From IMG/VR virus record IMGVR_UViG_3300025120_000074, positions 1 through 53,030 of that record: a DNA stretch of 53,030 nt. One strand, written 5' to 3'. This document shows positions 11,139-32,305 of this stretch, in pieces. Within the stretch, counting starts at the first letter, position 1. Each line of letters starts with the position of its first letter. Origin of the DNA: a virus. A program made the translations under genes and the position numbers. Below the pieces are notes generated by a model, which did not search any database, was not told the origin of the DNA, and was given only the letters and a program-made list of their open reading frames with translations.

Positions 11139-11322
11139 TACATTTATACTGTATTGTGTGTGGAGCAGGAAGACTAGGTGTCATTTGTTTTACAAACGCT
11201 CCTACCATTTTTCTACATTCTTGTTGTGTTATTGCCATTTCTTGTGGATTAAACATCTTACAATCTACAGATTGGTCTATAGGTGATAGTAAACATATTG
11301 TAACTAACGGCAAAAACATCAA
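11116..11322 (-). CDS. Small exported protein in the lysis cluster
   Basis: This 68-residue protein starts with a short hydrophobic segment (MFLPLVTICLLSP) that could be a signal peptide, followed by a polar domain with four cysteines in all. It overlaps the M15 peptidase gene by 4 bases and is expressed after it. Placement next to an endolysin and holin suggests a spanin-like or envelope role, but it lacks a clear lipobox and I do not recognise the family. Confidence 0.55.
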   Translation of the reverse strand: MMFLPLVTICLLSPIDQSVDCKMFNPQEMAITQQECRKMVGAFVKQMTPSLPAPHTIQYKCIDKSVRI

Positions 11323-11771
11323 CTCAATTCAAAGTGTGGACCATCAATAAATGGTCTTCTACCTTGTCCTCTTCTAAGATCAACATACGCATTCATAGCA
11401 TCTTCCATAGTACCACTCCACTGACGCATATCATCTATCTGCCAAGCTGCACCCCAACGTATACCTACGTCCTCAAGCTTTGCAGCTTCCTTCATAGCGT
11501 CAGCAATGTCATCATAGACATTGAGTTCCCATGAAGCCCTCCCACCAATATATGCCATTAAGTCTACAGCTAGTCCTTCCAGATGCTTTGACTTCATGGT
11601 TTGTGAAGCTCCTTTAGCTACTAGTGCTTCCTGCTCTTCTATGGTACGCATACCACAGATAACGCCAAAGTCTATCTTCGTAAGTTCTATAGCTTTCTTA
11701 ACTACACGTACCATGTCTGCATTAACACCGTCTAGTCTATCTTGGCTTCGTTGTGAGAGAGTGAATCCCAT
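11319..11771 (-). CDS. M15-type peptidoglycan peptidase (endolysin)
   Basis: This 150-residue zinc peptidase belongs to the VanY/CwlK-like M15 group, which cleaves L-Ala-D-Glu or D-Ala-D-Ala bonds in peptidoglycan. The zinc motif is visible as 'SKHLEGLAVD' (His63, Asp70) and 'PHFEL' (His146) at the C-terminus, with the conserved 'CGMRTIEEQ' opening. There is no signal peptide, so it would need the neighbouring holin (11913-12314) to reach the wall. The start ATG overlaps the stop of a small zinc-ribbon gene (TAATG). A second wall hydrolase is encoded at 23163-23582 in the replication module. Confidence 0.9.
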   Translation of the reverse strand: MGFTLSQRSQDRLDGVNADMVRVVKKAIELTKIDFGVICGMRTIEEQEALVAKGASQTMKSKHLEGLAVDLMAYIGGRASWELNVYDDIADAMKEAAKLEDVGIRWGAAWQIDDMRQWSGTMEDAMNAYVDLRRGQGRRPFIDGPHFELS

Positions 11772-15293: not shown

Positions 15294-15593
15294 CTACCAT
15301 TTGACTTTATCTGCCCAGTATGCAGCAGACATTTTTCCCTTTTTAATATTCTTAGCGTGTCTCGCCTTGAATGATTTACGCTTTGCTTTCATTCGTGCTG
15401 ACTCTCCTGCTTTAGGACTTCCTGCAGTTTCAGCACCCTTCTCTCCAAATTTAATTAGCTTGTACTTGCCACCCTCACTTGCCATCACAACGTGAGACTT
15501 GCCACTTGGATCATCCCTAAGTCTCTTAGGTTTGTTGACACCCTCAAGTCCATACTTCTTCATCAGCGTTTTGACTCGTTCAGGTATCGCCAT
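15294..15593 (-). CDS. DUF5872-like conserved basic protein
   Basis: This 99-residue protein carries 'GKSHVVMASEGGKYKLIKFG' and 'KAGESARMKAKRKSFKARHA', then 'KGKMSAAYWADKVKW', a pattern I associate with the DUF5872 family of aquatic phage and giant virus proteins. It is very basic and probably binds nucleic acid or sits in the virion. It overlaps the first gene of the operon by 14 bases. Family recognition is from memory of the motif. Confidence 0.7.
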   Translation of the reverse strand: MAIPERVKTLMKKYGLEGVNKPKRLRDDPSGKSHVVMASEGGKYKLIKFGEKGAETAGSPKAGESARMKAKRKSFKARHAKNIKKGKMSAAYWADKVKW

Positions 15594-15840
15594 AGTGTTC
15601 TCTCTTCATGTGTGGCTTGTAAACATCCCTAGCTTCTAGCATACCCTCAAGATACATAGCTCTTTCTACGTGATCCAGTGTGTACAGTACTCCAGTGTCA
15701 AGTTGAATCTTCTTTCTAACATAGAATACGTCAGAACGAGGGATGTGGCATCTTCTAAGTCTTACTTCATCTTCATCTGCTAGTGCGTGATAGAACTCTT
15801 CTATTACATTATCACTAATGTAAGTTTTAATTTTGGACAT
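15580..15840 (-). CDS. First gene of the left virion operon (unknown)
   Basis: This 86-residue protein begins 'MSKIKTYISDNVIEEFYHAL'. A longer frame starts at 15888, but that start lies upstream of the promoter at 15848-15875, so I use the ATG at 15840. That ATG is only 7 bases after the -10, so the mRNA would be leaderless or nearly so. The protein is charged and mixed alpha/beta, with 'DVFYVRKKIQLDTGVLYTLD' in the middle. No family is recognised. Confidence 0.65.
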   Translation of the reverse strand: MSKIKTYISDNVIEEFYHALADEDEVRLRRCHIPRSDVFYVRKKIQLDTGVLYTLDHVERAMYLEGMLEARDVYKPHMKREHYGDT

Positions 15841-15847
15841 GGTACTA

Positions 15848-15875
15848 GTTATACTCCTAAAGTTTCTTTTGTCAA
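15848..15875 (-). promoter_or_regulatory. Sigma70-like promoter of the left virion operon
   Basis: Leftward TTGACA (15875-15870), 16-base spacer, TATAAC (15853-15848), with AGGAG directly before the -10 and TAGTACC after. It matches the promoter at 8-35 in both hexamers, in spacer length and in 11 of 16 spacer bases, so the two are probably paralogous copies. Confidence 0.8.
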
Positions 15876-15922
15876 CAAGAAACGACAATAAATCTCCCCC
15901 ATCTCTAAAATATATTTTCGTT

Positions 15923-16012
15923 ACATTAAGTATACCTTATGTTCTTTAAGTATATACTTATAGGTGGAGGAGATTAGGTATACTTAATGTTACATTAAGT
16001 TACTTTAAGTAT
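15923..16012. repeat. Cluster of TTAAGTATA operator-like repeats
   Basis: Four copies of the core TTAAGTATA occur here (15926, 15946, 15979 reversed, 16005), plus near matches such as ACATTAAGTT at 15992. One forms a perfect 14-bp palindrome, TAAGTATATACTTA, at 15947-15960. The array lies directly downstream of the -10 at 16013-16018, where a bound regulator would block or modulate leftward transcription. The same repeat recurs at 17202, 17551 and 21430-21520. Integrase arm sites or replication iterons are alternatives. Confidence 0.7.
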
Positions 16013-16040
16013 ATTATACCACGATTATACATTATGTCAA
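16013..16040 (-). promoter_or_regulatory. Consensus leftward promoter abutting the repeat array
   Basis: Leftward TTGACA (16040-16035), a 16-base spacer and TATAAT (16018-16013) match the consensus hexamers perfectly. The start site would fall inside the first repeat (16002-16012). It reads into the second promoter at 15848-15875 and the left virion operon, giving that operon a regulated upstream promoter and an internal one. Confidence 0.75.
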
Positions 16041-16204
16041 GCATTAATTTAACTAATATGTAACAAATATAGGTTTTTCACAGTGTATTTCCCAGAGTTG
16101 TTCTTAACATTGCCCCCAGTTGTACATTATGTGGCTGAGAGGCTCTAGGTTGTTCACTGAGTGGGGTCTGGGAGTTATTACATCGTATCATACCTAACGT
16201 ATCT

Positions 16205-16224
16205 ATTCCCTCCTCAGAGGGGAT
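16205..16224. terminator. 8-bp hairpin, possible terminator
   Basis: ATTCCCTC (16205-16212) pairs with GAGGGGAT (16217-16224) around a CTCA loop with one G-T pair. It is the most GC-rich hairpin of the region but lacks a strong T-run on either side, so termination is uncertain. Confidence 0.4.
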
Positions 16225-16240
16225 TTACAAGATGCTCTGT

Positions 16241-16307
16241 GTATTCTGCATAAATGCCTAAAAAATAGGCAATATAATACAACTGCACGTTTTGTATGCA
16301 GAAATAC
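16241..16307. other. Nested double hairpin in the control region
   Basis: An outer stem, TTCTGCATA with TATGCAGAA (16244-16252 and 16295-16303) extended by GTAT/ATAC with a bulge, encloses an inner hairpin TGCCTA/TAGGCA (16255-16260 and 16266-16271) with a five-A loop. It could be a structured RNA or a protein-binding cruciform. No gene is seen here. Confidence 0.45.
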
Positions 16308-16791
16308 AATGTAGTTAACACTCTGTTTCCCCCTTCTCTGGCAGAGTATGTACATAGTATCTACGTAGGGTAGGGTGGCTCATGCAACCCAGTAGTAAAA
16401 ATACCACAGTGATGCAACATATTGTAGCTTTCAGGTAACACGTGCAGCTAAACCATTGATTTTAAACAATATCTTATACAATAATACATTCTATTACGTG
16501 TAAGTTATTGATTTTACTGGTAGTTTTACAGCCATTGCACGAATTTTGAAGTATTCAAGTATAATTTTTTTGTCGCATATATATAGTCATAAAAATAATT
16601 TAAAAAAAAATAAAAATAATTCTTTACATATCTATTTTTTTAAATTAGAACTGTACTCAACAAACAAAAACATTTTAATAACCGCTAAGGCAATCTTTAA
16701 AATAAGTTAGTTTGTTAAGACTAAACTAAAAACTTTCATTTAGTATAAAAATGTGAATTATAAGACTAAACACTAAGACTAAAATTAATAC

Positions 16792-16821
16792 TTGACTAAC
16801 AATACGAATTAAGATTACGAT
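16792..16821 (+). promoter_or_regulatory. Weak rightward promoter before the candidate RNA
   Basis: TTGACT (16792-16797), an 18-base spacer and TACGAT (16816-16821) form a plausible but weak sigma70 promoter. It would transcribe a small hairpin (CTTGTA/TACAAG, 16865-16883) and the structured element at 16988-17125. Confidence 0.4.
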
Positions 16822-16987
16822 ATAAACAAGCGGTAAGAAAGCGGTAGGTTAGAAATAAAAAGATCTTGTATAGACGCTACAAGCCACTCTCTAAGTGATA
16901 TTAGAAAAGGTACACGCCATTTATTGATTTTGTGGAAACACATGGGCTAACTTTAACGCAATCCTTACGATTGTATTAGGTGTCTTA

Positions 16988-17125
16988 AAAGGATAATGGT
17001 AAACGTAAAGAGCTAAGGTCAATCAGTCTTTACTACCACAGTGCGAGGGATAATTAAGCCACGCTGTTGTCTATCATAGTTATGGTAACACTATGACAAG
17101 GCTAGTCCAACAGACGTTATCCTTT
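16988..17125 (+). ncRNA. Candidate structured non-coding RNA
   Basis: Four mutually compatible helices can be drawn: P1 AAAGGATAATG (16988-16998) with CGTTATCCTTT (17115-17125), 11 bp with one G-U; P2 GTAAAG (17005-17010) with CTTTAC (17028-17033); P3 CTGTTG (17064-17069) with CAACAG (17108-17113); and P4 TCATAGT (17074-17080) with ACTATGA (17090-17096) inside P3. No open frame of note covers the element. It matches no RNA family I recognise (not tRNA or tmRNA, no cobalamin riboswitch box). Strand is uncertain because the helices also form on the complement. Confidence 0.45.
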
Positions 17126-17159
17126 AGGTGAATATATAAGCCTATAAATAATGATTAGA

Positions 17160-17197
17160 GGGTGCAAGGCATAGTGATATGATGACAACTTGCATCC
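17160..17197 (+). other. 9-bp hairpin overlapping a promoter -35
   Basis: GGGTGCAAG (17160-17168) pairs with CTTGCATCC (17189-17197), with one G-T pair and a 20-base loop. Its right arm contains the TTGCAT -35 of the promoter at 17190-17219. It may end the candidate RNA transcript or present a binding site. Confidence 0.45.
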
Positions 17198-17219
17198 TAT
17201 AGTTTAAATTAAGTATAAC
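17190..17219 (+). promoter_or_regulatory. Rightward early promoter with operator-overlapped -10
   Basis: TTGCAT (17190-17195), an 18-base spacer and TATAAC (17214-17219). The -10 lies inside the TTAAGTATAACC repeat, so a regulator bound there would compete directly with polymerase. It reads into the early gene cluster. The SSB promoter (27689-27718) has the same TTGCAT and 18-base spacing. Confidence 0.6.
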
Positions 17220-17223
17220 CTCT
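17202..17223 (+). repeat. Left copy of a perfect 22-bp inverted repeat
   Basis: The 22 bases, with core TTAAGTATAACC, are an exact reverse complement of 17551-17572. The two copies bracket the small gene at 17246-17524. They share the TTAAGTATA core with the arrays at 15923-16012 and 21430-21520. Confidence 0.85.
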
Positions 17224-17245
17224 CAAACTTATGATTGGAAATATT

Positions 17246-17524
17246 ATGAATATACTACAAAAATTTAGCGTAAAAATGATTACTAAAAGAACAAGTAGAA
17301 GTCTAAGTAAGCAAGGTCAAAAGCCTGTTTACTTTAACACCCATAAAAATATTAAGGATAGATGGGGTAGCTATATTACTTCTGGTGGTGTGAGTGATAA
17401 GGCTTTTCTTGCACTATGTATGGGTGATCAAACGTCATACTTTCCACTTGAAAGTGTGGCAAAAAAGACACCATTTAAAAACAATGCAAAGACAAGAATT
17501 AATTTTGTACAGCATAAACAATAA
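17246..17524 (+). CDS. Basic small protein flanked by operator copies; candidate regulator
   Basis: This 92-residue basic protein begins 'MNILQKFSVKMITKRTSRSL'. An in-frame ATG at 17231 would lie within about 5 bases of the predicted transcription start, so the ATG at 17246, with a weak GGAA ribosome site, is preferred. It has no recognised domain. The gene is bracketed by exact inverted copies of the 22-bp repeat, as expected if its product binds them and controls itself, so it is a candidate for the regulator of the TTAAGTATA sites. That is inference from position; no helix-turn-helix is obvious. Confidence 0.55.
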   Translation: MNILQKFSVKMITKRTSRSLSKQGQKPVYFNTHKNIKDRWGSYITSGGVSDKAFLALCMGDQTSYFPLESVAKKTPFKNNAKTRINFVQHKQ

Positions 17525-17550
17525 TAACTTGACAACTATTTAAATTTAAT

Positions 17551-17572
17551 AGAGGTTATACTTAATTTAAAC
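17551..17572 (-). repeat. Right copy of the 22-bp inverted repeat
   Basis: This is the exact reverse complement of 17202-17223. It lies between the small basic gene and the next gene at 17585, with a TTGACA at 17529-17534 upstream whose spacing to TATACT (17557) is 22 bases, too long for a normal promoter. Confidence 0.85.
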
Positions 17573-17584
17573 AAGAGGTGTAAT

Positions 17585-17755
17585 ATGACATATACAATAT
17601 TTTTAATTATAGGTATTGATAGAAGTGTGGGTGACGTACAAGAAAGCGTATACGCTGTTTACCATGATTCAGATGATATTGGTGGTGATATACAAGACGC
17701 AATTAATGAGGGTTGGGATGATGTCCAACTTGTAACAAGAGAAGTTGAGGTGTAA
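17585..17755 (+). CDS. Small acidic early protein (56 aa)
   Basis: This short frame starts after a good ribosome site (AAGAGGTG) and begins 'MTYTIFLIIGIDRSVGDVQE'. It is acidic in its second half ('SDDIGGDIQDAINEGWDD') and predicted alpha/beta. The stop lies one base before the next start. No family is recognised. Its place in the early run suggests a host-takeover or regulatory role. Confidence 0.6.
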   Translation: MTYTIFLIIGIDRSVGDVQESVYAVYHDSDDIGGDIQDAINEGWDDVQLVTREVEV

Positions 17756-17756
17756 C

Positions 17757-18353
17757 ATGACTGTAAAAAATAGAAATAATATTGAGAGGGTGTTTAACTT
17801 AAGAACACCAGAAGAAGAAAAAGATGGTGTGACATGGTATGCACTAGCACAAGCAGATGCCAGACGCATGGCAATCTATTACAGCATACCCTTAACTACT
17901 GCGGTGGGTGTCATTGCGTCACTATCACCTAACAATAAATGGGAACGCAATGTAATAAATGCTAAGGATTTAATAGAGGGATACTTGAACGGAGAACACA
18001 AGGAAAGTATCAAAGTTAGCACCTACCATGCAATGAAAGACAAGGCATGGTCTATGCTTGAGGATATGTTAGAGACTGATGAGGATATATTGACTAGGCT
18101 TAATGGGCAAAAAATCAAGAGTTTTTACGAGTGTATCATGGGATATGATGCCTGTTGTATAGATGGACATGCCTATAATATTTGGAGATATGAGAGGGTA
18201 GGATTAACCACAGATAAAACCAACATAGGCAAGAAATTATACGCAGAAATACAAGGTGATTATGTGAGGGTAGCTAAGAAATTAGATATGAAAGCCTACG
18301 AATTACAAGCAATAACTTGGGTAGCATGGAGAAGAATACATGGCATTACGTAA
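17757..18353 (+). CDS. Helix-hairpin-helix (glycosylase-fold)-like phage protein
   Basis: This 198-residue protein starts at the ATG at 17757, after GAGG; an upstream TTG at 17745 overlaps the previous gene. The order 'VGVIASLSPNNKWERN', 'NGQKIKSFYECIMG', 'CCIDGHAYNIW' and 'ELQAITWVAWRRIHG' recalls the HhH-GPD DNA glycosylase layout, with 'C.DGHA' where glycosylases have 'vD.Hv'. Similar proteins of unknown function occur in many phages. A role in base modification or DNA binding is possible but the catalytic residues are not clear. It overlaps the next small gene by 14 bases. Confidence 0.6.
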   Translation: MTVKNRNNIERVFNLRTPEEEKDGVTWYALAQADARRMAIYYSIPLTTAVGVIASLSPNNKWERNVINAKDLIEGYLNGEHKESIKVSTYHAMKDKAWSMLEDMLETDEDILTRLNGQKIKSFYECIMGYDACCIDGHAYNIWRYERVGLTTDKTNIGKKLYAEIQGDYVRVAKKLDMKAYELQAITWVAWRRIHGIT

Positions 18354-18513
18354 AGAAAGATTCTGGAGTGTAGTACTATTAGATAAGGAACGCTTAGATG
18401 GTAGCTATATCTATCTAAAAGTTAAGGCTAATACTAAGGCTGATGTACTACATACATTTCTAGATTACTATGAGATAGTAGACGTAAACTTATTTAATGT
18501 GAGGGTAATATAA
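18340..18513 (+). CDS. Small early protein (57 aa)
   Basis: The frame begins 'MALRKERFWSVVLLDKERLD' and has an alpha/beta pattern. It overlaps the upstream gene by 14 bases and its stop shares a base with the next ATG (TAATG), a coupling that supports translation. Function is unknown. Confidence 0.6.
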   Translation: MALRKERFWSVVLLDKERLDGSYIYLKVKANTKADVLHTFLDYYEIVDVNLFNVRVI

Positions 18514-18791
18514 TGGCAACAATGGGTGAGATACAGACACGCAATAGGATTAAGATTGCTGTCTTTGCATACGCTTATGAGTTTAAGAATGATAGCCTTG
18601 TAAGTGACGCAGAGTTTGATGAGTTAGCTAAAGAGGTGAAGGCAGGTTTAGATATTGGTACAGGTAATGATAAGCTTGATGACTTCTTTGCTAAAGAATT
18701 TGTTACTGATAGTGGAATGTGGATACATAGACACCCAGAATTACACAAGGTGTGTGATATGTACCACACAATATGGAAGGATGAAGTGTGA
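18513..18791 (+). CDS. Small early protein with ligase-N-terminal-like helix (92 aa)
   Basis: The segment 'AYEFKNDSLVSDAEFDELAK' resembles the 'YY..D.P.ISDAEYD.L' helix of NAD-dependent DNA ligase adenylation domains, but nothing else of a ligase is present and the protein is too short. It ends 'CDMYHTIWKDEV'. Comparable short proteins occur in phage early regions without known function. Confidence 0.6.
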   Translation: MATMGEIQTRNRIKIAVFAYAYEFKNDSLVSDAEFDELAKEVKAGLDIGTGNDKLDDFFAKEFVTDSGMWIHRHPELHKVCDMYHTIWKDEV

Positions 18792-18796
18792 CAATT

Positions 18797-18907
18797 ATGG
18801 AACTATACATGGTAATTTTTATAACAGTATTATTATTTTGGAGTGGATGCTTGACAGGTTATATCATAGGTGCTAGACCTTGGGATAGAAGGAGATTTAA
18901 ACGATGA
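18797..18907 (+). CDS. 36-residue single-span membrane peptide
   Basis: The frame begins 'MELYMVIFITVLLFWSGCLT' and continues 'GYIIGARPWDRRRFKR', that is one transmembrane helix followed by a basic tail predicted to face the cytoplasm. Its stop overlaps the next start (ATGA). It is one of four small membrane proteins or peptides in the early and lysis regions. Function is unknown. Confidence 0.5.
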   Translation: MELYMVIFITVLLFWSGCLTGYIIGARPWDRRRFKR

Positions 18908-19227
18908 AAGCATTTTTAATTGACCCAGAACTGAGGGTAATAAAAGAAGTAGAATATAGTGGAGACTATAGAGAAATCTATGCTCTAACAGGGTGTAAAA
19001 CTTTTGATGTCGTTGGGATACCATTTGGTTCTGATGGCATCTACGTAGATGATGAAGGGTTATACGCTGATGTGATGCACAAGTGGGAGTTTAACTTGCA
19101 CCACCAACCACCTATAAAGCTAGTCAATAGAGGGCTAGTGCTAGGGTGTGATGATGAGGGTGACAGCATAGAACCTGTAATAAGTCTGGATATGCTACAA
19201 CATTTTGTAACGTGGGATTGGAGTTGA
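18904..19227 (+). CDS. DUF3846-like early protein
   Basis: This 107-residue protein opens 'MKAFLIDPELRVIKEVEYSG' and contains 'EIYALTGCKTFDVV' and 'IYVDDEGLYAD', the usual signature of the DUF3846 group found in phages and plasmids. It is acidic and predicted alpha/beta. The biochemical role of the family is not known to me. ATGA overlap with the previous gene indicates coupled translation. Confidence 0.7.
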   Translation: MKAFLIDPELRVIKEVEYSGDYREIYALTGCKTFDVVGIPFGSDGIYVDDEGLYADVMHKWEFNLHHQPPIKLVNRGLVLGCDDEGDSIEPVISLDMLQHFVTWDWS

Positions 19228-19228
19228 T

Positions 19229-19450
19229 ATGATTATCACAAAGACAAGCACGATGACAGGTCAAACTAACACTATGGAGTTAGATGTAACGCAACAACAG
19301 ATTGAGCAATGGGAAGGAGGTATGCTCATTCAAAACGCTATGCCTAACTTAACAACAGAAGAGAGGGAGTTTATCATGTCTGGTATAACATCAAGTGAGT
19401 GGGCTGTAGCCTATGGAGATATGGAAGAGGTGTATGATGAGGATAGATAG
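19229..19450 (+). CDS. Conserved short phage protein (73 aa)
   Basis: The segments 'MTGQTNTMELDVTQQQIEQW', 'GGMLIQNAMPNLTTEEREFI' and 'GITSSEWAVAYG' form a pattern recurring in short proteins of many T7-like and marine phages. It is acidic and mostly helical. No function is established. It overlaps the next small gene in another frame. Confidence 0.7.
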   Translation: MIITKTSTMTGQTNTMELDVTQQQIEQWEGGMLIQNAMPNLTTEEREFIMSGITSSEWAVAYGDMEEVYDEDR

Positions 19451-19607
19451 TGGAATAGATAGAGCTTGGGAAGGTTATTGGTTGACACTCAAAGGATTAA
19501 CGAGTAAAGAAGTAGAAGATATAAACACACTAGTAGAAGCATACAAAAAAATAAAGGGGATTAAAGATGGCTATACCACACTTAAAAATAACAGAGACTA
19601 TGCGTAA
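19434..19607 (+). CDS. Small early protein (57 aa)
   Basis: The longest frame starts at 19413, but the two adjacent ATGs at 19434 and 19437 follow a GAAGAGG ribosome site, so I start it there. The protein is helical ('WEGYWLTLKGLTSKEVEDIN') with a basic C-terminus. It overlaps the neighbours by 17 and 41 bases. No family is recognised. Confidence 0.5.
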   Translation: MMRIDSGIDRAWEGYWLTLKGLTSKEVEDINTLVEAYKKIKGIKDGYTTLKNNRDYA

Positions 19608-19926
19608 CAAGTATTATGCTGACGCTAAGAATGAGGTAATAGATTTTTTTGAGATTGATATGAACTTATGGGGAAGTAACCCTTTGTATTATGTAGGTTG
19701 TTATGGTCATCTTGACATGGATGATGTACTCATTAAGTTCTACAAGACAGCCAGAGGTGACAAGCGTATGTCCATACCCAAGCTACGTAAAGTTACAGAG
19801 GCAGGTGACTACGTATGGTTTACTGAAGCTAAAGACGGTGAGACTATCTACTACAATATACACATAGGCAAGGAGCTACCCTTTGATAGCGAACAGTATG
19901 AGCAACTACAGCAGAGGTTTGGCTGA
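19567..19926 (+). CDS. Early protein of unknown function (119 aa)
   Basis: This protein begins 'MAIPHLKITETMRNKYYADA' and contains 'YYVGCYGHLDMDDVLIKFYK' and 'GDYVWFTEAKDGETIYYNIH', suggesting an alpha helix followed by a beta sheet. The ribosome site GGGG lies about 10 bases before the ATG. Its stop overlaps the next ATG. Nothing catalytic is recognised. Confidence 0.6.
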   Translation: MAIPHLKITETMRNKYYADAKNEVIDFFEIDMNLWGSNPLYYVGCYGHLDMDDVLIKFYKTARGDKRMSIPKLRKVTEAGDYVWFTEAKDGETIYYNIHIGKELPFDSEQYEQLQQRFG

Positions 19927-20099
19927 TGGCATTAGATTATAGATGGTACAAGAAAGACTTAGAAGCTATGCGTACATTAACTAAAAGCACTATGCCTTTG
20001 GTTAAGCTATGTAAAGATGATGAAGAACTCAAGGCATACAAGGAAGTAAGTAAGGGTATGCGAGGCATAAAGAATATTGAATTTAAAAAAGGAGAATGA
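19926..20099 (+). CDS. Small basic early protein (57 aa)
   Basis: The frame begins 'MALDYRWYKKDLEAMRTLTK' and is lysine-rich and helical throughout. It shares a base with the upstream stop (TGATG) and overlaps the next start by 4 bases (ATGA). The tight packing supports a real gene. Function is unknown. Confidence 0.55.
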   Translation: MALDYRWYKKDLEAMRTLTKSTMPLVKLCKDDEELKAYKEVSKGMRGIKNIEFKKGE

Positions 20100-20470
20100 C
20101 AATGGCTAACACAGACAAGAGATACCAGAAGAGTACCACACCCATCCTAGATGATGAGGATAACCATTCGTCACACCATTTAGTTCAAGCACTGTGGTTA
20201 CAGAGGCAACCTGATTGGCAAGAGGGTGTAACGTGGGAAGATTGCGATGAAGATGTACAAGGCAGATACTACGATGAACGCAGAGAGCAATGTCAGATAC
20301 GCACTACAGCTAAGTGGGATGCACTATCTGAAGATAGCAGACGTATGCAAATAGAATCCTACAACAATACCGTAGATGCGTTAGACAAGATGATGCACGT
20401 AATGTATGGCTTGCAACATCCTATACCAGAGAGCATACGTAAGATAGCGTGTAAGGAGTTTGAGTGGTGA
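20096..20470 (+). CDS. Acidic early protein (124 aa)
   Basis: This protein begins 'MTMANTDKRYQKSTTPILDD'; the second Met (20102) is an alternative start. It is rich in Asp, Glu, Trp and Gln ('LWLQRQPDWQEGVTWEDCDE') and appears helical after residue 70. No family is recognised. A host-interaction role typical of acidic early phage proteins is possible. Confidence 0.6.
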   Translation: MTMANTDKRYQKSTTPILDDEDNHSSHHLVQALWLQRQPDWQEGVTWEDCDEDVQGRYYDERREQCQIRTTAKWDALSEDSRRMQIESYNNTVDALDKMMHVMYGLQHPIPESIRKIACKEFEW

Positions 20471-20598
20471 TGAACAAGGTACACCCACTAGAGGTACACA
20501 TCTGTATAGGCATAGCTTTAGTCATTGCCTGTATAGAGTATTGGCTTAATCAAATAGGTATGAGTGGCTTCACTTATGCTTTAATAGTAGGAGACTAA
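20470..20598 (+). CDS. 42-residue single-span membrane peptide
   Basis: The frame encodes 'HICIGIALVIACIEYWL' as one transmembrane helix. It shares one base with the previous stop and ends one base before the next start, so it sits in the coupled chain of early genes. Function is unknown. Confidence 0.5.
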   Translation: MNKVHPLEVHICIGIALVIACIEYWLNQIGMSGFTYALIVGD

Positions 20599-20599
20599 T

Positions 20600-20803
20600 A
20601 TGTTTTTTGAGAATGAATTACCCATGAACCATGAGCCTAGCTTAGACTACATAGCACAGGCTTGGGCAACTTACGATGTAGAAGGTGGTGAGACATTAAA
20701 TTTTGACCACGCATATGAAATGTCATGGTCTGCACTTGAATCTGAATTAGAATTTGAGGGATTAAAGATGACTACTGAGTGGTGGGATAGAGGTAGAACA
20801 TGA
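20600..20803 (+). CDS. Acidic early protein (67 aa)
   Basis: This protein is rich in Glu, Trp and Tyr, for example 'ALESELEFEGLKMTTEWWDR'. A GGAG ribosome site precedes it, and its stop overlaps the next ATG by four bases. No family is recognised. Confidence 0.6.
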   Translation: MFFENELPMNHEPSLDYIAQAWATYDVEGGETLNFDHAYEMSWSALESELEFEGLKMTTEWWDRGRT

Positions 20804-20997
20804 AACCATACCACAACGAGGGCTTCTTTAAGGCAGCACTGCTAGTAATCTTTCTACTTGTACCTCTGCCCTACATCATAGGCTACCTAGCGTGGGGAGA
20901 TCCTTGGGTAGCAACATACAAAGAGATGTTTCACCCTGACAGATGCAGGTATGAGGACAACAAACATAATGTAATAGATAACTGTGAGAAGGAGTAA
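20800..20997 (+). CDS. Small membrane protein with export-type helix (65 aa)
   Basis: A hydrophobic helix, 'AALLVIFLLVPLPYIIGYLA', spans residues about 8-27 and is followed by a charged domain with two cysteines ('DRCRYEDNKHNVIDNCEKE'). It could be a signal-anchored protein with a periplasmic disulfide-bonded tail. It lies in the early cluster. Superinfection exclusion is one possibility but nothing here proves it. Confidence 0.6.
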   Translation: MKPYHNEGFFKAALLVIFLLVPLPYIIGYLAWGDPWVATYKEMFHPDRCRYEDNKHNVIDNCEKE

Positions 20998-21000
20998 CAG

Positions 21001-21186
21001 ATGGTAGCATGGATGCCAAGCCCAGTGTATAACTATGCTGTAGAGTATGAGGGTGTAAGTTTTAATGACTCTGGTGTGAACACTAGGGTGAGGTCTATAT
21101 ATTTGTACGCAACTAGTGAGCTACACATTAAGCAGATACTAGGTGACTACAAAGTTTTAACAATAGAAAAGTATGAAGGGAAGTAA
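21001..21186 (+). CDS. Early protein of unknown function (61 aa)
   Basis: The protein begins 'MVAWMPSPVYNYAVEYEGVS' and looks beta-rich with aromatic residues. It follows an AAGGAG ribosome site. It ends just before the next gene's ATG at 21188. No family is recognised. Confidence 0.55.
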   Translation: MVAWMPSPVYNYAVEYEGVSFNDSGVNTRVRSIYLYATSELHIKQILGDYKVLTIEKYEGK

Positions 21187-21187
21187 G

Positions 21188-21382
21188 ATGTATCACATAA
21201 CGATAGAAAGAAATGATGAGGTAGTAGAGGATTGGCATGGCAAGATATTCTCTGATGAGATAGGTAAGGCTGACAGTATGACTAAGAGTGGTGACACACT
21301 GACTGTTGTATGGTCACTGGAATGTCTTGATGGGTATGAGGATACAGATGAAGTGTTGTATCAAAGACACATTGATAAATAA
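21188..21382 (+). CDS. Last small early protein (64 aa)
   Basis: The longest frame begins at 21173, inside the previous gene, but the ATG at 21188 has a GGGAAGTAAG ribosome site and is preferred. The protein begins 'MYHITIERNDEVVEDWHGKI' and is acidic with a beta-rich pattern. It is the last gene before the integrase promoter. Function is unknown. Confidence 0.55.
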   Translation: MYHITIERNDEVVEDWHGKIFSDEIGKADSMTKSGDTLTVVWSLECLDGYEDTDEVLYQRHIDK

Positions 21383-21398
21383 AAATATATTATCAGGG

Positions 21399-21428
21399 TT
21401 GTCACACTTCTGTAAGTGACTGTATAAT
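21399..21428 (+). promoter_or_regulatory. Integrase or replication module promoter
   Basis: TTGTCA (21399-21404), an 18-base spacer containing a small bulged hairpin (CACTT/AAGTG), and a perfect TATAAT (21423-21428). Repeats of the TTAAGTATA family begin one base after the -10, as at the leftward promoter 16013-16040. It reads into the leader peptide, integrase and replication genes. Confidence 0.7.
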
Positions 21429-21429
21429 T

Positions 21430-21520
21430 ACATTAAGTATACTTTAAGTAAGACATTAACTCCTACAACTTAAAGAAAGATAAAACTTTATGTATACTTT
21501 ATGTAAACTTTAAGTATAAC
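21430..21520 (+). repeat. 11-bp phased operator-like repeats upstream of integrase
   Basis: Two groups of tandem 11-mers: ACATTAAGTAT and ACTTTAAGTAA (21430-21451), then ACTTTATGTAT, ACTTTATGTAA and ACTTTAAGTAT (21485-21517). An AAGTATACTT palindrome spans 21435-21444. The 11-base period puts the sites on one face of the helix. They could be operators or integrase arm-type sites. The sharing with a region 5.5 kb away, at another promoter, favours operators. Confidence 0.75.
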
Positions 21521-21544
21521 TAGGGTCTTTGTATCCAAGAGGAG

Positions 21545-21622
21545 ATGAAGATGCTAGGTAAAGATGATGATCCATGTGATGAGATGATGCCACCTATACC
21601 AAAAAAGAAAGAAGAGAAATGA
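21545..21622 (+). CDS. 25-residue leader peptide coupled to integrase
   Basis: After AAGAGGAG, a short frame starts 'MKMLGKDDDPCDEMMPPIPK' and ends KKEEK, and its stop overlaps the integrase ATG (ATGA). The strong ribosome site belongs to this peptide, and integrase has none of its own beyond the coding A/G-rich end. Integrase is therefore probably made by translational coupling. Confidence 0.55.
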   Translation: MKMLGKDDDPCDEMMPPIPKKKEEK

Positions 21623-22704
21623 AATATACGACTAAGGTAAAACTTAAGGATGGCTCTGCTGTCTATCGTTTTAATCCACCCAATGATGCTAAGTCAGCAG
21701 GTGTTGTATCACCTAAGACTTTCCACGATGGGAGACAGGCGAGACATGAAGTACCAAAGCTTGTAAAGATTGTTGATGACTTCAGAAAGGGTAACATACT
21801 TGTTGGTACTCTAGGTGTTAAGAGTAACCTAAGACAGGTGACAGCACACTACCTTAACACTGGACAGTTTAATTCTTTGTCGTCAAGGACTAGGAAGACC
21901 TACGAGTATGGCTTTGCAAAGATCAATAGCACTAAGCTGTTTGCTAGGGAGTTAGGTGACATAACTGTCAAGGCTGTCACATCTGCTCACTGCACAGAAC
22001 TCTATGAGATTTGGGTTAGGAACGTGAGTGTTGACCATGCTAACCAACTGTCAAGAATCTTCTCAGTCCTATTAAACTTCTGTCGTTCCATTGAACTGAT
22101 AGACACCAACCCAATGTCTAGGGTTAAGAAGCGTTCACACACACCTCGCTCTGTAGTATGGACTAAGCCACAGGTAGAGCTATTCATTGAGACTGCCTTC
22201 TCTCAATTTAAGTGGAGAAACATTGGACTACTGGCACTCCTTGCCTACGAGTGGGGACAAAGACCCATTGACATTACTCTACTTGAGTGGTCTAGCATAG
22301 ATTTTGATAAGAAGATGGTAACAATCAAGCAGACTAAGCGTGGTGCTACAGTAATGTTACCCATTGAGGATAAGATAATGGAGCTTATGGTACAACAGTT
22401 AGGTGATTGGGATTGGCAGAAGTATGTTATACCTCACCAGAGACCTTCAGATGGGGCATACAGACCTATACCATCAGGTCAGGTATCTACCCTAGCAAAT
22501 GAGGTTAAGGCTGAGTGTGGGCTACCTTCAGACCTACATATGGGAGACCTACGTAAGACTGCCATCACTGAGTTAATTGAGAGTGGAGTTGATGCACTGG
22601 CAATCATGCACGTAACAGGGCATAAAAATGTACAGAGTCTTAACCCATACAACAAACACAACTATGAGACTGCAAAGTCTGCACTAGATATAAGGAGAGG
22701 GTGA
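21619..22704 (+). CDS. int: Tyrosine recombinase / integrase
   Basis: This 361-residue site-specific recombinase would insert or excise phage DNA. The catalytic C-terminal domain shows Arg215 in 'EWGQRPIDITLLEW', a lysine in 'VTIKQTKRGA', Arg312 in 'GDLRKTAITEL', His335 in 'VTGHKNV' and nucleophile Tyr344 in 'NPYNKH'. The first His of the HxxR box is replaced by Gly309, though His307 lies two residues earlier. The N-terminal half has a core-binding domain. It is preceded by 11-bp repeats and coupled to a leader peptide. No attP core or tRNA fragment could be recognised nearby. Confidence 0.92.
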   Translation: MKYTTKVKLKDGSAVYRFNPPNDAKSAGVVSPKTFHDGRQARHEVPKLVKIVDDFRKGNILVGTLGVKSNLRQVTAHYLNTGQFNSLSSRTRKTYEYGFAKINSTKLFARELGDITVKAVTSAHCTELYEIWVRNVSVDHANQLSRIFSVLLNFCRSIELIDTNPMSRVKKRSHTPRSVVWTKPQVELFIETAFSQFKWRNIGLLALLAYEWGQRPIDITLLEWSSIDFDKKMVTIKQTKRGATVMLPIEDKIMELMVQQLGDWDWQKYVIPHQRPSDGAYRPIPSGQVSTLANEVKAECGLPSDLHMGDLRKTAITELIESGVDALAIMHVTGHKNVQSLNPYNKHNYETAKSALDIRRG

Positions 22705-23163
22705 TTGGCAAAGTATCAAACTTATATTAATAAAGAAGAAGCAATAGAGTTAGGTTTACCAGACCTAAGAGGCACAGTAAATAAAAAAGGTTATAAATTT
22801 TTACACTACGCTATGTCTAGACTTAGTGGTAAGGTATGCACAGTATACGAGAACCCTAACTTTAGATCAAATAAGTGCAGTACTGCAAGAAGAAAAAGAA
22901 AAACATTAAGGGAGTTTACAACTAGGGTTAAGATGAGGTTTGGTTGCAGAGAATGTGGGTATAAAAAACACCCTGCTGCTTTACATTTTAATCATTTAAA
23001 TCAAGAAACAAAATCTACAAATGTAAGTAGGATTTCAACTTGGATGAAGCTTAAAAATGAAATTAGAAAATGTGAAATTCTTTGTGCTAATTGTCATGCT
23101 ATACACAGCGTAGAAAATAAACACCACTTAAAATTTAACCACACTATACATGAGGAAACATAA
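22705..23163 (+). CDS. HNH endonuclease
   Basis: This 152-residue protein starts at TTG (22705), supported by AGGAGAGGG directly upstream and by lack of an early ATG. It has the zinc-bound HNH layout 'CRECGYKKHPAALHFNHL' followed by 'CEILCANCHAIHS', with two CxxC pairs and the central H-N residues. Such enzymes nick or cut DNA and are often mobile between phage genes. Its insertion between integrase and a wall hydrolase, with an ATG overlap at the end, fits a homing or packaging-associated nuclease. Confidence 0.85.
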   Translation: MAKYQTYINKEEAIELGLPDLRGTVNKKGYKFLHYAMSRLSGKVCTVYENPNFRSNKCSTARRKRKTLREFTTRVKMRFGCRECGYKKHPAALHFNHLNQETKSTNVSRISTWMKLKNEIRKCEILCANCHAIHSVENKHHLKFNHTIHEET

Positions 23164-23582
23164 TGTTTACAACAGCACTCGTATGTTTAGCAATGAACGT
23201 ATACTGGGAAGCTAGGTCACAATCTACAGCAGGTCAAATTGCTGTGGCACAGGTTGTAATCAACAGGGTAAATGATAAAAGATACCCTGACAACGTGTGT
23301 GATGTCGTTACACAGGCAGTAAGACATTCGGGTAGTGACCTACCTGTAAGGCATAAGTGCCAGTTCTCATGGTATTGTGACGGTCTGAAGGACAATCCTA
23401 CTGACGATTCAGCTTGGGCAAAGGCACTGCTTGTGGCTGTAACTGTACATGACGGTAAGACTATTGATATGTTAGAGGGTGCAACACACTACCACTCCAC
23501 CTCTGTGTATCCTGATTGGGCAAGCACAAAGACAAGGACATCAAGGATAGATGACCACATATTTTATAGATGGGAGAAGTAG
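23163..23582 (+). CDS. SleB/CwlJ-type cell wall hydrolase
   Basis: This 139-residue protein matches the Hydrolase_2 (SleB) domain: 'LAMNVYWEARSQSTAGQIAV' with the catalytic Glu16, 'VINRVNDKRYPDNVCDVV', 'CQFSWYCDG' and 'THYHSTSVYPDW'. The family cleaves peptidoglycan glycan strands (lytic transglycosylase activity). It has no clear signal peptide. It lies in the rightward replication module rather than with the holin, so it may act at a different time from the M15 endolysin (11319-11771). Confidence 0.9.
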   Translation: MFTTALVCLAMNVYWEARSQSTAGQIAVAQVVINRVNDKRYPDNVCDVVTQAVRHSGSDLPVRHKCQFSWYCDGLKDNPTDDSAWAKALLVAVTVHDGKTIDMLEGATHYHSTSVYPDWASTKTRTSRIDDHIFYRWEK

Positions 23583-24251
23583 ATGATTAAAGTAACTTAT
23601 ATGGAACATATGGGGTCTGACCTGAGTGTAGTAAATGCAGCAAGGGTTAGCTTCAACAACTGGTCTAACTCATTTGATATGAGTAAAGAAAGAAACATTA
23701 AGCTTATCAAGTACTTAGCTAAACACAAACACATGTCACCCTTTGGTCATTGCTTTGCTAAATTTCATGTACGTGCCCCTATCTTTGTAGCTAGGCAGTT
23801 GGTCAAGCATAAGTTCCTACGTTGGAATGAGATGAGTAGGAGATACGTAGACACTACACCTAACTGGTACAGACCAGACATGAATGATGAGAACACTGCA
23901 CTCTGGAGAAAGCAAACAAAAGATAAGAAGCAGGGCAGTGGTGGTGTATTAGAATCTGAAACAGAACAGAGCCTTGCCAACTTTGAGTTGAACCATGTAA
24001 TTGCTGAAGCTATGCAAGCCTATCAGAGACTATTAGAGATGGGTGTGTGTGAGGAACAGGCACGTATGGTGTTACCTTTATGTCACATGACTGAATGGTA
24101 TTGGTCTGGTAGTCTTGACGCATTCGCTGACATGTGTATACTTCGATGTGCAGAAGATGCTCAAGTAGAAAGCAGAATGGTAGCAGACGATATTAGTAGA
24201 GAGATGGGAAAGTTATTCCCTGTATCATGGAAGGAATTAATGAATGAGTGA
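23583..24251 (+). CDS. thyX: Flavin-dependent thymidylate synthase
   Basis: This 222-residue ThyX methylates dUMP to dTMP using FAD, NADPH and methylene-THF, supplying thymidine for phage DNA. The 'SPFGHCFAKFHVRAPIFVAR' core and the signature region 'KHKFLRWNEMSRRYVD' (about residues 74-89) are present. Compared with the usual RHRxxSxNExSxRY, both Arg are Lys and the first Ser is Arg, a variant motif. The C-terminal 'MCILRCAEDAQVESR' Arg box is intact. It overlaps the primase-helicase start by 8 bases, tying nucleotide supply to replication. Confidence 0.92.
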   Translation: MIKVTYMEHMGSDLSVVNAARVSFNNWSNSFDMSKERNIKLIKYLAKHKHMSPFGHCFAKFHVRAPIFVARQLVKHKFLRWNEMSRRYVDTTPNWYRPDMNDENTALWRKQTKDKKQGSGGVLESETEQSLANFELNHVIAEAMQAYQRLLEMGVCEEQARMVLPLCHMTEWYWSGSLDAFADMCILRCAEDAQVESRMVADDISREMGKLFPVSWKELMNE

Positions 24252-25845
24252 TAACCCACATCAGGCATGTCCATTTGAAGACTGTGGATCATCAGATGCA
24301 TTCAACTGGAATGACGATGGGTATGGATTCTGTCACAGTTGTGGGGAATCTTACCCTACTAAAAAGAGAATAGGCATATTTGATTGGGTAAGAGAGAGCT
24401 ACCCTGTAAAACAGAAGGTGAATGTAATGCAAGTAGAAGTTAAAGGTATGACGTTTGATAACATCAGGGGTATCAACCCAGATGTATGCAAACTGTATGG
24501 CATACAGGTACAGACAGGTGCAAACGGTGAGCCTGTAAGGTATGCATACAAGTACCCACACACCGTCAAGTACAGAGACTTCAACGATAAGTCTAAGACT
24601 TGGATTAAAGACAGGGGTGTAGGTATGAATCACCTATTTGGACCTGAGTTTAACTCCAACTCTTCCAACAAGATATACATAACAGAGGGAGAGTTTGATG
24701 CTGCAAGTCTCTACCAGATACTAGGTCAGAAATACTTTGTGAAGTCACTACCTTCTGCATCTATTGGTGAGAAGTTTATCAAGCAGAATTATGATTACCT
24801 CAACTCTTTCAAGGAAATAATCTACGCAGGGGAACTTGATGATGCAGGTAAGCGTAGTGCAGAGAAGATATATGAAGCCTTCCCTGCTAAGTTATACTTT
24901 GTACCTATGTCCAAGCACAAGGATGCTAACGAGTTCTTGATGGCAGGTGATAGTGAGGCACTCAAGTGGACTGCATTGAAACCACAACGCTACTCACCTG
25001 ACAACTTCTTTTGTTCTGATGAGGAAGTTGAACAGGCGATAAGGACTGAGAGTCCATACCAGTACACACCAACAGGTCACACAGGACTTGACGATAAGAT
25101 CAGGGGCATTGTCAAGGGTGGCTTAACTTTTCTCAAAGCACCAAGGGGTACAGGTAAGACAGAGGTGATACGATACTTTGAGACAGGGCTACTGTCTAAC
25201 CCTGATACACGCATAGCCCTGCTACACATGGAAGAGATGAAGTCTACAACCTACAGAGCAATGGCAACGTACAACCTTGGTGTTAATGTTAGGACTGAGG
25301 ACGATGCAAAGGAGAATGGTATCTCTGAGGATGACGTAGTGGCTGCTGCTAAGTTAGCTACACAGGGTGAGCGTACCATAGTCTTTGAGATGAGGTCACA
25401 TGATGATCCACTCAAGCTACTAGAGTACACTAGACTTGCAGCTACTGTCTACGGTGCAGAGTACATCTTTGTAGACCACGTTCAAAGACTAGCCTACCTC
25501 AGTCAGGCAGGTGTAGATGGTGCTACCTCAGTACTCACATCACTTGGAGCTAGGATGGCACAGCTATCTAAGGAGTTGAACATAGGTGTGGTATTAATAT
25601 CACAGGTTAATGATGATGGACGTACCAAATATGCATCATCTCTTGAAGAAGAAGCAATCATTTGTATAAAGATTGAAAGAGATGTTGACAGTGATGATGA
25701 ATTAGTTCAGAATACAACTAACTTTATTGTTGATAAGAACAGACCCTTTGCAAAGTTGGGTAAGGCAGGTAGTGTTTACTATGATCCTGAGACTACGTTG
25801 CTTACTGAAGAGTCAGGGGGTACAGAAGATAGGATGGTTGCATGA
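24244..25845 (+). CDS. DNA primase-helicase (T7 gp4-like)
   Basis: This 533-residue bifunctional replisome protein has an N-terminal zinc site (Cys9, Cys14, Cys30, Cys33). A TOPRIM primase follows with 'YITEGEFDAASLYQIL' and 'ELDDAGKRSAEKI'. The C-terminal RecA-like hexameric helicase has Walker A 'APRGTGKTEV' (about 299-308), Walker B 'YIFVDHVQRL' and 'VVLISQVND'. It unwinds the fork and primes lagging-strand synthesis, working with the polymerase encoded immediately downstream with a 4-base overlap. All main motifs are present. Confidence 0.93.
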   Translation: MSDNPHQACPFEDCGSSDAFNWNDDGYGFCHSCGESYPTKKRIGIFDWVRESYPVKQKVNVMQVEVKGMTFDNIRGINPDVCKLYGIQVQTGANGEPVRYAYKYPHTVKYRDFNDKSKTWIKDRGVGMNHLFGPEFNSNSSNKIYITEGEFDAASLYQILGQKYFVKSLPSASIGEKFIKQNYDYLNSFKEIIYAGELDDAGKRSAEKIYEAFPAKLYFVPMSKHKDANEFLMAGDSEALKWTALKPQRYSPDNFFCSDEEVEQAIRTESPYQYTPTGHTGLDDKIRGIVKGGLTFLKAPRGTGKTEVIRYFETGLLSNPDTRIALLHMEEMKSTTYRAMATYNLGVNVRTEDDAKENGISEDDVVAAAKLATQGERTIVFEMRSHDDPLKLLEYTRLAATVYGAEYIFVDHVQRLAYLSQAGVDGATSVLTSLGARMAQLSKELNIGVVLISQVNDDGRTKYASSLEEEAIICIKIERDVDSDDELVQNTTNFIVDKNRPFAKLGKAGSVYYDPETTLLTEESGGTEDRMVA

Positions 25846-27683
25846 TAATATTTGACGCAGAAGCAGATGGTTTACTTGATCGTGCCACTAAGATACACTG
25901 CTTCTCTTACTTAGATGGAGAAGAACTAAAGACACTGCATCACTATGATGACATGAGGCATCTGTTAGTAAATGCAAAAGGTTTGCTAGGTCACAACATT
26001 ATTCGCTACGATGTACCACTCTTGAATAAGATACTTGGTATTAAGATTACAGCTAGGTTATTTGATACACTTCCTATGTCGTGGGTACTCAATCCACTAC
26101 GCAGTAAGCATGGCTTGGATAGTTTCTTCCCTGACTTTGGTATTGAGAAACCTAAGATAGATGATTGGCACAACCTATCACCGACTGACTACGCTCACAG
26201 ATGTGAACAGGATGTACTGATTACACAAGCCTTGTGGAACAATCTACTGAAAAGATTTATGTTTCTCTACAAGGACAAGGTAAAGCTAGACAAGTTCTTT
26301 CGTTACCTTGAGTTCAAGATGGACTGTGCTAATGAAGCAGAGCAACAGGGTTGGAAGTTAGACACTGACTTGGCAATCAGTTGTGTTGATAAGATAACTA
26401 AGCTACAGGAAGAGAAGGTAGCAGAACTTATAGAGGTTATGCCCATGCGTAAGCTGACTAAGGTACAGACTAAACCTAAAGTTTGCCACAAGAAGGATGG
26501 CTCACTGTCTGCTCATGGTGCAAGATGGTTTGGTTTACTAGATGAGTATGGACTACCAGACGGTTACAACGGTGATGTTACAGTGACTAAGGGTGCAGAA
26601 GAAGCTAACCCTAACTCCACTGAACAGGTAAAAGATTGGTTAACTTCTTTAGGTTGGAAGCCATGTACATACAAGTACAATAAGAACAAGGAGACAGGTG
26701 AAGAGAAGAAGGTATCACAGATACGAAAGAATGGTGAGCTAACCAAGTCAGTACGTTTACTTATCAAAGACAGCCCTGCTGTTGAGGTACTTGATGGTCT
26801 GACAATACTCCAACACCGCCTCAGTATATTCAAAGGCTTTGTTGAGTGTGAACATGATGGTTACGTAAGAGCAGAGATAGATGGACTAACCAACACACTA
26901 CGCTTTAAGCATAAGAAACCATTGGTTAATTTACCTAGTGTGGACAAGCCTTGGGGTAGAGAGATACGCAGTTGCTTGGTTGCACCAGAAGGTTACACAC
27001 TCTGTGGTGCTGACATGACATCACTTGAAGATACAACTAAGAGACACTATATGAAACCCTATGACCCTGAGTATGTAGAGGAAATGTCAAGAGATGGCTT
27101 TGACCCACACCTTGACCTTGCTAAACATGCAGGTGTGATTACACAGGGTGATATAGACAAGCATGTGAGTGGAGAGAAGGACTTGAAGCCACTGCGTAAG
27201 AACTTTAAGGTGGTTAACTATTCTGCAACTTACGGTGTTGGTGCAGCAAAACTATCAAGAGAAACAGGTATGTCAGTGCAGGAATCACAGAAGTTACTTG
27301 ACGCATACTGGCAACGTAACTGGTCAGTCAAACAGTTTGCTGAAGAACAGAATGTTAGAGAGATAGGTGGTGAGATGTGGATACAGAACCCTGTGAGTAA
27401 GTTCTGGCACAGCCTACGGTACAAGAAGGATGCCTTCTCCACCATCAACCAAAGCACAGGTTCTTATTGCTTTGATAAGTGGGTAGCATTCTACCGTATC
27501 AAGAGGTCAAACATTGTGGGTCAGTTCCACGATGAAAGTATTAACGTAGTTAGAAAAGGAGAAGAGCAACAGCATACAAGTGTACTGAGTTGGGCTATCA
27601 CTAAGTTGAATGAACAACTCAAGTTAAATGTACAGTTAGGTATTGATGTACAGTATGGAAAAAACTATGCAGAAATACATTAA
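25842..27683 (+). CDS. polA: Family A DNA polymerase with 3'-5' exonuclease
   Basis: This 613-residue replicative polymerase is T7-like in scale. Exonuclease motifs: 'DAEADG' (Asp5, Glu7), 'GHNIIRYDVPLL', and 'YAHRCEQDVLITQALW'. Polymerase motifs: A 'CGADMTSLED' (Asp391), B 'RKNFKVVNYSATYG' and C 'QFHDESINVV' (Asp564). Aligning motif B to E. coli Pol I puts Tyr460 at position 762, the state found in T7 and linked to virulent phages. Motif A is unusual: 'MTSLEDTTKRHY' replaces the common 'SxxELR'. The segment between domains (about 190-310) is long, but no DnaJ zinc finger is visible in it. Confidence 0.93.
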   Translation: MIIFDAEADGLLDRATKIHCFSYLDGEELKTLHHYDDMRHLLVNAKGLLGHNIIRYDVPLLNKILGIKITARLFDTLPMSWVLNPLRSKHGLDSFFPDFGIEKPKIDDWHNLSPTDYAHRCEQDVLITQALWNNLLKRFMFLYKDKVKLDKFFRYLEFKMDCANEAEQQGWKLDTDLAISCVDKITKLQEEKVAELIEVMPMRKLTKVQTKPKVCHKKDGSLSAHGARWFGLLDEYGLPDGYNGDVTVTKGAEEANPNSTEQVKDWLTSLGWKPCTYKYNKNKETGEEKKVSQIRKNGELTKSVRLLIKDSPAVEVLDGLTILQHRLSIFKGFVECEHDGYVRAEIDGLTNTLRFKHKKPLVNLPSVDKPWGREIRSCLVAPEGYTLCGADMTSLEDTTKRHYMKPYDPEYVEEMSRDGFDPHLDLAKHAGVITQGDIDKHVSGEKDLKPLRKNFKVVNYSATYGVGAAKLSRETGMSVQESQKLLDAYWQRNWSVKQFAEEQNVREIGGEMWIQNPVSKFWHSLRYKKDAFSTINQSTGSYCFDKWVAFYRIKRSNIVGQFHDESINVVRKGEEQQHTSVLSWAITKLNEQLKLNVQLGIDVQYGKNYAEIH

Positions 27684-27688
27684 AGTAC

Positions 27689-27718
27689 TTGCATTATAAT
27701 TATTAATCGTGTTAGAAT
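27689..27718 (+). promoter_or_regulatory. Promoter for the SSB gene
   Basis: TTGCAT (27689-27694), 18-base spacer and TAGAAT (27713-27718), followed by AGGAG before the ATG at 27747. It is one of the few gaps in the replication module, so extra transcription of SSB, a protein needed in quantity, is plausible. Confidence 0.5.
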
Positions 27719-27746
27719 AAACTTTCAATAAATTAGGAGACTAAAA

Positions 27747-29870: not shown

Positions 29871-29894
29871 CATTTAAAGTATATGGAGTATAAC
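29867..29894 (+). promoter_or_regulatory. Internal promoter for MazG and ribonucleotide reductase
   Basis: TTGACA (29867-29872), 16-base spacer ending in GGAG, TATAAC (29889-29894), then TA. It is the third copy of the promoter type at 8-35 and 15848-15875. The -10 ends two bases before the ATG of the gene at 29896, so the RNA begins inside that gene and mainly serves MazG, NrdJ and DUF3310. Confidence 0.7.
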
Positions 29895-29895
29895 T

Positions 29896-32304: not shown

Positions 32305-32305
32305 T

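Follow-up and report, generated by a model that had tools for sequence, protein, structure and literature searches.

Two short clusters of a palindromic repeat, each lying directly behind a near-consensus promoter, mark the phage genome IMGVR_UViG_3300025120_000074, which was analyzed from position 1 to 53,030 (the window, 53,030 nucleotides in all). We read these clusters as operator arrays of a phage repressor acting at two promoters, P_L and P_M, with the 86-amino-acid (aa) product of the first leftward gene as the likeliest binder, and we place the probability of this reading at roughly 0.62. By computation, the arrays exist, follow the −10 elements, are clustered, recur in relatives, and differ in their unit both between clades and between phages of the same host. 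The window represents a podovirus with an HMO-2011-type structural arm; its portal is 63-70% identical to those of CRP-9, CRP-13, CRP-1, and HMO-2011, and it also has the two-arm gene order of HMO-2011-type phages, with a 1.3-kb gap separating the divergent arms. All results were computed from sequence, promoters are consensus matches, and the controls were shuffled sequences, which do not model evolution.

The initial annotation had described a core, TTAAGTATA, as clustered at a few places, and this was borne out. Eight exact copies are present in the genome (at 15926-16013, 17209, 17557, and 21433-21518), all at the places named and none elsewhere, compared with a mean of 1.83 and a maximum of 6 in shuffled genomes; 0 of 100 shuffles reached eight. 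A base-by-base reading of both clusters revealed the core to be an off-register slice of an 11-bp palindrome, TAC(A/T)5GTA (TAC-W5-GTA). All five exact copies of the palindrome (at 15922, 16001, 21429, 21440, and 21495) fall inside the two clusters, where five one-mismatch units adjoin them. Genome-wide, the 11-mer is not enriched (5 exact copies vs 2.3 expected; 48 vs 44.7 when one mismatch is allowed), and 10 of these 48 units lie within two stretches of ~100 bp. The signal is hence one of clustering, not of total number, and the anticipated excess of the motif held for the core only. When the 7-mers of the P_L array were scanned across the genome, the P_M array, 5.4 kb away, was the best match elsewhere. 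BLASTN searches against phages, made with the intergenic region and the P_M array, returned short chance matches only.

Each array begins 0-2 bp past a TATAAT and spans the predicted +1 to about +90 (Table 1), which upholds the −10 adjacency claimed earlier for both clusters. The first P_L unit (16011-16001) covers the predicted start site, beginning one base past the −10, while unit 21429-21439 directly abuts the −10 of P_M. By position, P_L serves the leftward arm and P_M the integrase and replication genes. Nearly all HMO-2011-type relatives have a TTGACA immediately adjoining the ATG of their first leftward gene, which could reflect a leaderless mRNA or another conserved element.

Table 1. 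Window coordinates of the promoters, arrays, repeats, and genes under discussion.
Feature	Coordinates	Strand	Remarks
P_L −35 TTGACA	16035..16040	-	P_L promoter score 10.1, second best sigma70-like site of the window
P_L −10 TATAAT	16013..16018	-	16-bp spacer
P_L array	15922..16011	.	exact units 16001-16011, 15922-15932; one-mismatch units 15991-16001, 15981-15991, 15942-15952
Second promoter-like site TTGACA-16-TATAAC	15848..15875	-	between P_L array and candidate regulator gene, 7 nt before ATG
First gene behind P_L, candidate array-binding regulator, 86 aa	15580..15840	-	adjoins array in compared relatives
P_M −35 TTGTCA	21399..21404	+	sigma70-like promoter
P_M −10 TATAAT	21423..21428	+	18-bp spacer
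P_M array	21429..21516	.	exact units 21429-21439, 21440-21450, 21495-21505; one-mismatch units 21484-21494, 21506-21516
Tyrosine integrase	21619..22704	+	first larger gene behind P_M
Left arm of perfect 22-bp inverted repeat	17202..17223	+	one degenerate (one-mismatch) unit, 17205-17215
Right arm of perfect 22-bp inverted repeat	17551..17572	-	one degenerate (one-mismatch) unit, 17559-17569

The same arrangement recurs in relatives, which are often metagenomic contigs of unknown host; the hosts of the CRP phages are as stated in their records. Of 129 non-redundant sequences ahead of the first leftward gene, 75% contain a near-consensus promoter (score of at least 9.1), vs 1.6% of shuffled sequences, and in most window-type members an array lies directly past the −10, as in L107 (TATAAT-ATACTTAAGTATATACTAGAGTATTACTAAAGTATTACTAAAGTAATACTTAAGTATTACC). 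De novo motif discovery over 28 non-redundant window-type arrays, repeated per clade, yielded the palindrome ACTTAAGT with T/A flanks, the central TA being the least conserved part of the unit. Of these arrays, 26 contain TAC-N4/5-GTA, at 75 occurrences in total (8.9 expected from shuffles), and there are 56 perfect 10-bp palindromes against an expected 21, in agreement with the earlier suggestion of palindromes suited to a dimeric binder. Units are often 10-11 bp apart, about one helix turn, and the self-match of arrays is raised at lags 11 and 12 (z about 4) and also at 6. The P_L unit bases are identical in the window and its 97% relative.

Of 23 genomes tested, 13 have a unique second array that follows a promoter-like site. 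Scans with each genome's own P_L-array 7-mers located it with z values of 12.6 in the window, 14.2 in CRP-9, 11.3 in CRP-13, and 9.2 in CRP-345. It was likewise found in 9 of 14 further genomes (z 8.5 to 19.5), with the promoter-like site before it on the opposite strand. The distance from P_L array to second array is 4-8 kb where the record could be read through or was taken as circular. In several genomes the unit is confined to the two arrays: TACT-N2-AGTA in G011 (7/7), G012 (7/7), and G019 (9/9), and TACT-N3-AGTA in CRP-13 (6/6). What lies downstream of the second array varies: the window and G010 have the integrase there, G006-G009, G011, and G012 have other genes, and G015 and G019 have a tRNA. 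CRP-9 and CRP-13 carry both arrays with no integrase match. Given these varied genes and the two phages without an integrase match, the arrays go with the promoter and not with integration, and the link to the integrase drawn in the initial annotation is not needed. Arm-type sites of the integrase were ruled out, as the window arrays are 5.4 kb apart and arrays are present in phages without integrase.

The first gene behind P_L encodes an 86-aa protein with hundreds of relatives at more than 500 loci in IMG/VR (the '...HIPxSDVFYVR...' proteins), no Pfam family, and no significant PHROG. Among the 352 window open reading frames (ORFs) of at least 30 aa, only 15580-15888 was found in 9 of 9 array phages and in 0 of 4 relatives scored array-less; array status was read by eye from the gaps of those relatives, the Manatee Spring phage (counted positive) being the least clear. 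This concordance was drawn from nine phages found via the portal gene, and only portal-found phages count toward it because the other first-gene relatives were retrieved by searching with that very gene. The clades of the protein split with the unit: TAC-N4/5-GTA occurs 127 times vs 17 expected in one and CAC-N4/5-GTG 61 times vs 1.5 in the other, and in each clade the unit of the other is absent or depleted. We take this match as support and not proof, since it follows phylogeny too. A correlation by eye between the variable residue in HIP-R/K/H-SDV and unit type has exceptions in L136 and L149 and is hence not claimed. From a wide alignment, AlphaFold models the protein as all-helical (predicted local distance difference test score, pLDDT, 85); an earlier model from 29 sequences was poor (pLDDT 66). 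A viral structure library gave only likely homologues. The product of 15580-15840 may well be the array binder, at odds somewhat short of even.

The differences in unit also bear on who encodes the binder. CRP-1, CRP-2, CRP-9, and CRP-13 are recorded from one strain, FZCC0023; the arrays of CRP-9 and CRP-13 use TACT-N3-AGTA, and those of CRP-1 and CRP-2 have none. Since phages of a single host strain carry distinct units, a phage gene, and not the host, probably encodes the binder. The initial annotation had stated that no known repressor is encoded, and in keeping with this, Pfam gave no match to a CI/Cro-type helix-turn-helix repressor or a winged helix among the early and first leftward ORFs scanned, a subset of the window ORFs.

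From these patterns we infer protein binding, repression, and the identity of the binder. In the proposed circuit, a small phage-encoded protein, probably a dimer, would bind the 10-11 bp palindromes at both arrays, covering the start site and the first ~90 transcribed bp of P_L and P_M, both predicted to be promoters for host RNA polymerase. Occupancy would block or stall the polymerase, so that both arms would be turned off or toned down together. A cooperative dimeric repressor is suggested because near-consensus promoters need no activator and because +1 to +90 is the position of a repressor or roadblock. As its gene is the first behind P_L, the binder would repress itself; the promoter-like site between array and gene, with a TTGACA before the ATG that recurs in relatives, could allow the regulator to be made while P_L is blocked. 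The circuit may serve lysis timing, lysogeny, or both. More tentatively, a two-array repression circuit may be common to HMO-2011-type phages, run by DNA-binding proteins that would constitute a new family, would have an unseen fold, and would switch their half-site between TAC and CAC with the protein clade; we hold this broader proposal to be possible rather than probable.

Several observations weigh against reading the arrays as operators of the 86-aa protein. The concordance between gene, array, and unit type runs parallel to the phylogeny and may reflect very few independent events. The confident model of the protein matches no solved structure in the Protein Data Bank and no known DNA-binding fold, and the protein is slightly acidic (isoelectric point 6.2). 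Ten of the 23 genomes have no clear second array (HMO-2011, CRP-1, -2, -207, -603, G013, G014, and G016-G018), and a sub-clade of the candidate family (L121-L155) has atypical arrays. Few units are perfect and their spacing is not strictly periodic.

The strongest alternative, though we consider it rather unlikely, is that the arrays are operators of a different phage protein, with the first leftward gene a linked passenger and delayed release possible besides plain repression. The acidity of the 86-aa protein, its fold without known match, and a linkage that follows phylogeny would all suit a passenger. However, no other window ORF matches the presence pattern of the gene, which lies directly behind the array in compared relatives.

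Judged from gene content and array layout, it appears improbable that the arrays are instead replication elements, in which a promoter and A+T-rich iterons would let a transcript of the host polymerase act as replication primer, the arrangement at the primary origin of T7. The strong predicted promoter does run directly into an A+T-rich stretch, and a T7-like primase-helicase and a family A polymerase are encoded in the window, but such an origin would not need conserved palindromes, two arrays per genome head two operons, and many relatives have one array only. Less probable again is an Apl/Cox-like recombination directionality factor, for which arrays at the integrase/attP and at the lytic promoter would serve excision and repression. 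P_M indeed lies 100 bp ahead of the integrase gene; against this, both arrays are present in CRP-9, CRP-13, and G015 despite the lack of an integrase match, the second array heads other genes or a tRNA in several relatives, the units are palindromic, unlike one-sided direct repeats, and the candidate model has no winged-helix match. Least probable is control by host CtrA, which would recognize TTAA-N7-TTAA in the arrays and adjust the timing of phage transcription to host state: each window array has one such site and window-type arrays are enriched in them (28 vs 3.2 expected), as 11-bp spacing of units with a TTAA center would produce anyway, but the site is absent from the arrays of CRP-9, CRP-13, CRP-345, and G012 and not enriched in HMO/CRP-1-type arrays (3 vs 1.9), the central TA is the least conserved part of the unit, and phages of one host differ in their units.

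The initial annotation had extended one operator family over the promoters of both arms to include a perfect inverted repeat between the clusters. That repeat is present as described and extends to 28-bp arms at 93%. The family stands for the two clusters, with their recurrence in relatives; for the single sites at 17.2 and 17.55 kb, each with one degenerate unit, a part in the array system is not supported. A −10-like TATAAC is present at 17214, with only a weak −35 (TTGCAT, 18 bp), and among relatives the pair was seen only in the 97% identical contig G003. The product of ORF 17231-17524, proposed earlier as the binder, was rejected: it is an orphan, for which IMG/VR yielded a single near-identical copy and a weak partial match, and it is absent from every other compared relative with arrays. 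Beside the right arm of the repeat, the segment 17576-17746 is missing from G003.

The divergent gap of relatives contains two further palindrome families, TAGTTTAA-NN-TTAAACTA in CRP-9, CRP-13, G001, G002, G004, and G005, and TTGTGATCACAA in CRP-1, -2, -13, -345, -603, and G002; both are perhaps operators of the rightward promoter. In the window, four to five (A)GACTAAA direct repeats (16715-16800) stand directly ahead of a rightward promoter-like site at ~16793. The rightward leader (16825-17230) was rejected as a structured RNA, as it folds no better than shuffles (z −1.2), and Rfam gave no match anywhere in the window. A check for tRNA or attP traces found no tRNA in the window. A recurring TTGACA-16-TATAAC-TA promoter with a similar leader was seen in the structural arm of the L023, L026, L040, and L043 records (e.g., CRP-1 at 40787).

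The rightward arm spans 17231 to 32677 and runs from early small genes to the integrase, an HNH nuclease, an endolysin-like gene, thymidylate synthase, primase-helicase, polymerase, recombination genes, MazG, and ribonucleotide reductase. The leftward arm extends from 15888 down past the left end of the window and then from its right end to 32683, with small genes followed by lysis, packaging, and structural genes. Endolysin-like genes of two kinds are present, one per arm (23163-23582, phrog_938; 11319-11771, M15 peptidase/phrog_465), and a stand-alone early protein (18513-18791) matches the N-terminal domain of NAD-dependent DNA ligase (Pfam Nlig-Ia). One mark of HMO-2011-type phages is a DNA polymerase carrying a DnaJ-like CXXCXGXG insert; by tblastn, the window DNA polymerase had no match in HMO-2011, CRP-1, or CRP-2.

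Together, these findings put names to the predicted promoters, define a putative operator unit whose sequence varies from phage to phage, and single out one gene as the candidate regulator; they also offer natural protein variants paired with operator variants. HMO-2011-type phages are a very common kind of ocean phage, and the arrays sit on two of the strongest promoters predicted in the window. The word 'promoter' is absent from the published papers on the HMO-2011-type group that we searched.

Among known systems, the regulator Apl of phage 186 occupies repeats spaced by 10-11 bp, located at att and at pR-pL, and acts as a repressor of both promoters (PMC7498355). Like Apl, and like Cox of P2 and Xis-type factors, the proposed system would combine a small phage regulator with multiple weak sites, spaced by about one turn, over a promoter start at two genome locations; it differs in its palindromic units, in arrays without integrase, and in a candidate without a winged-helix match. 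CtrA binding to phage DNA has been published, as has a 1,312-bp divergent gap holding 12 TTAA-N7-TTAA sites (PMC9437464). The CtrA-bound arrays in phages of Alphaproteobacteria (vB_BsubS-Delta and others) share A+T-rich repeats and a large divergent gap with the window, which also has 11-bp periodic TTAA, whereas many relatives here have no TTAA-N7-TTAA and a host factor leaves the same-host unit variation unexplained. As the arrays would, the stoperators of mycobacteriophage immunity repressors place repressor sites within transcribed DNA, where they are reported to be able to stop polymerase (PMC9283540). Stoperators, however, are asymmetric and spread over the genome, in contrast to the two dense arrays found here. 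Small dimers such as MetJ, Arc, and plasmid ParR bind short tandem units 8-11 bp apart cooperatively; the tandem units are alike, but no ribbon-helix-helix protein was recognized here and the candidate is all-helical by prediction. The other HMO-2011-type podoviruses (CRP-1, -2, -9, -13, -207, -345, -603, and HMO-2011) have the same architecture and promoter arrays too, with lineage-specific units, and the window is set apart from them by a unit of its own and a replication block like that of CRP-9 and CRP-13.

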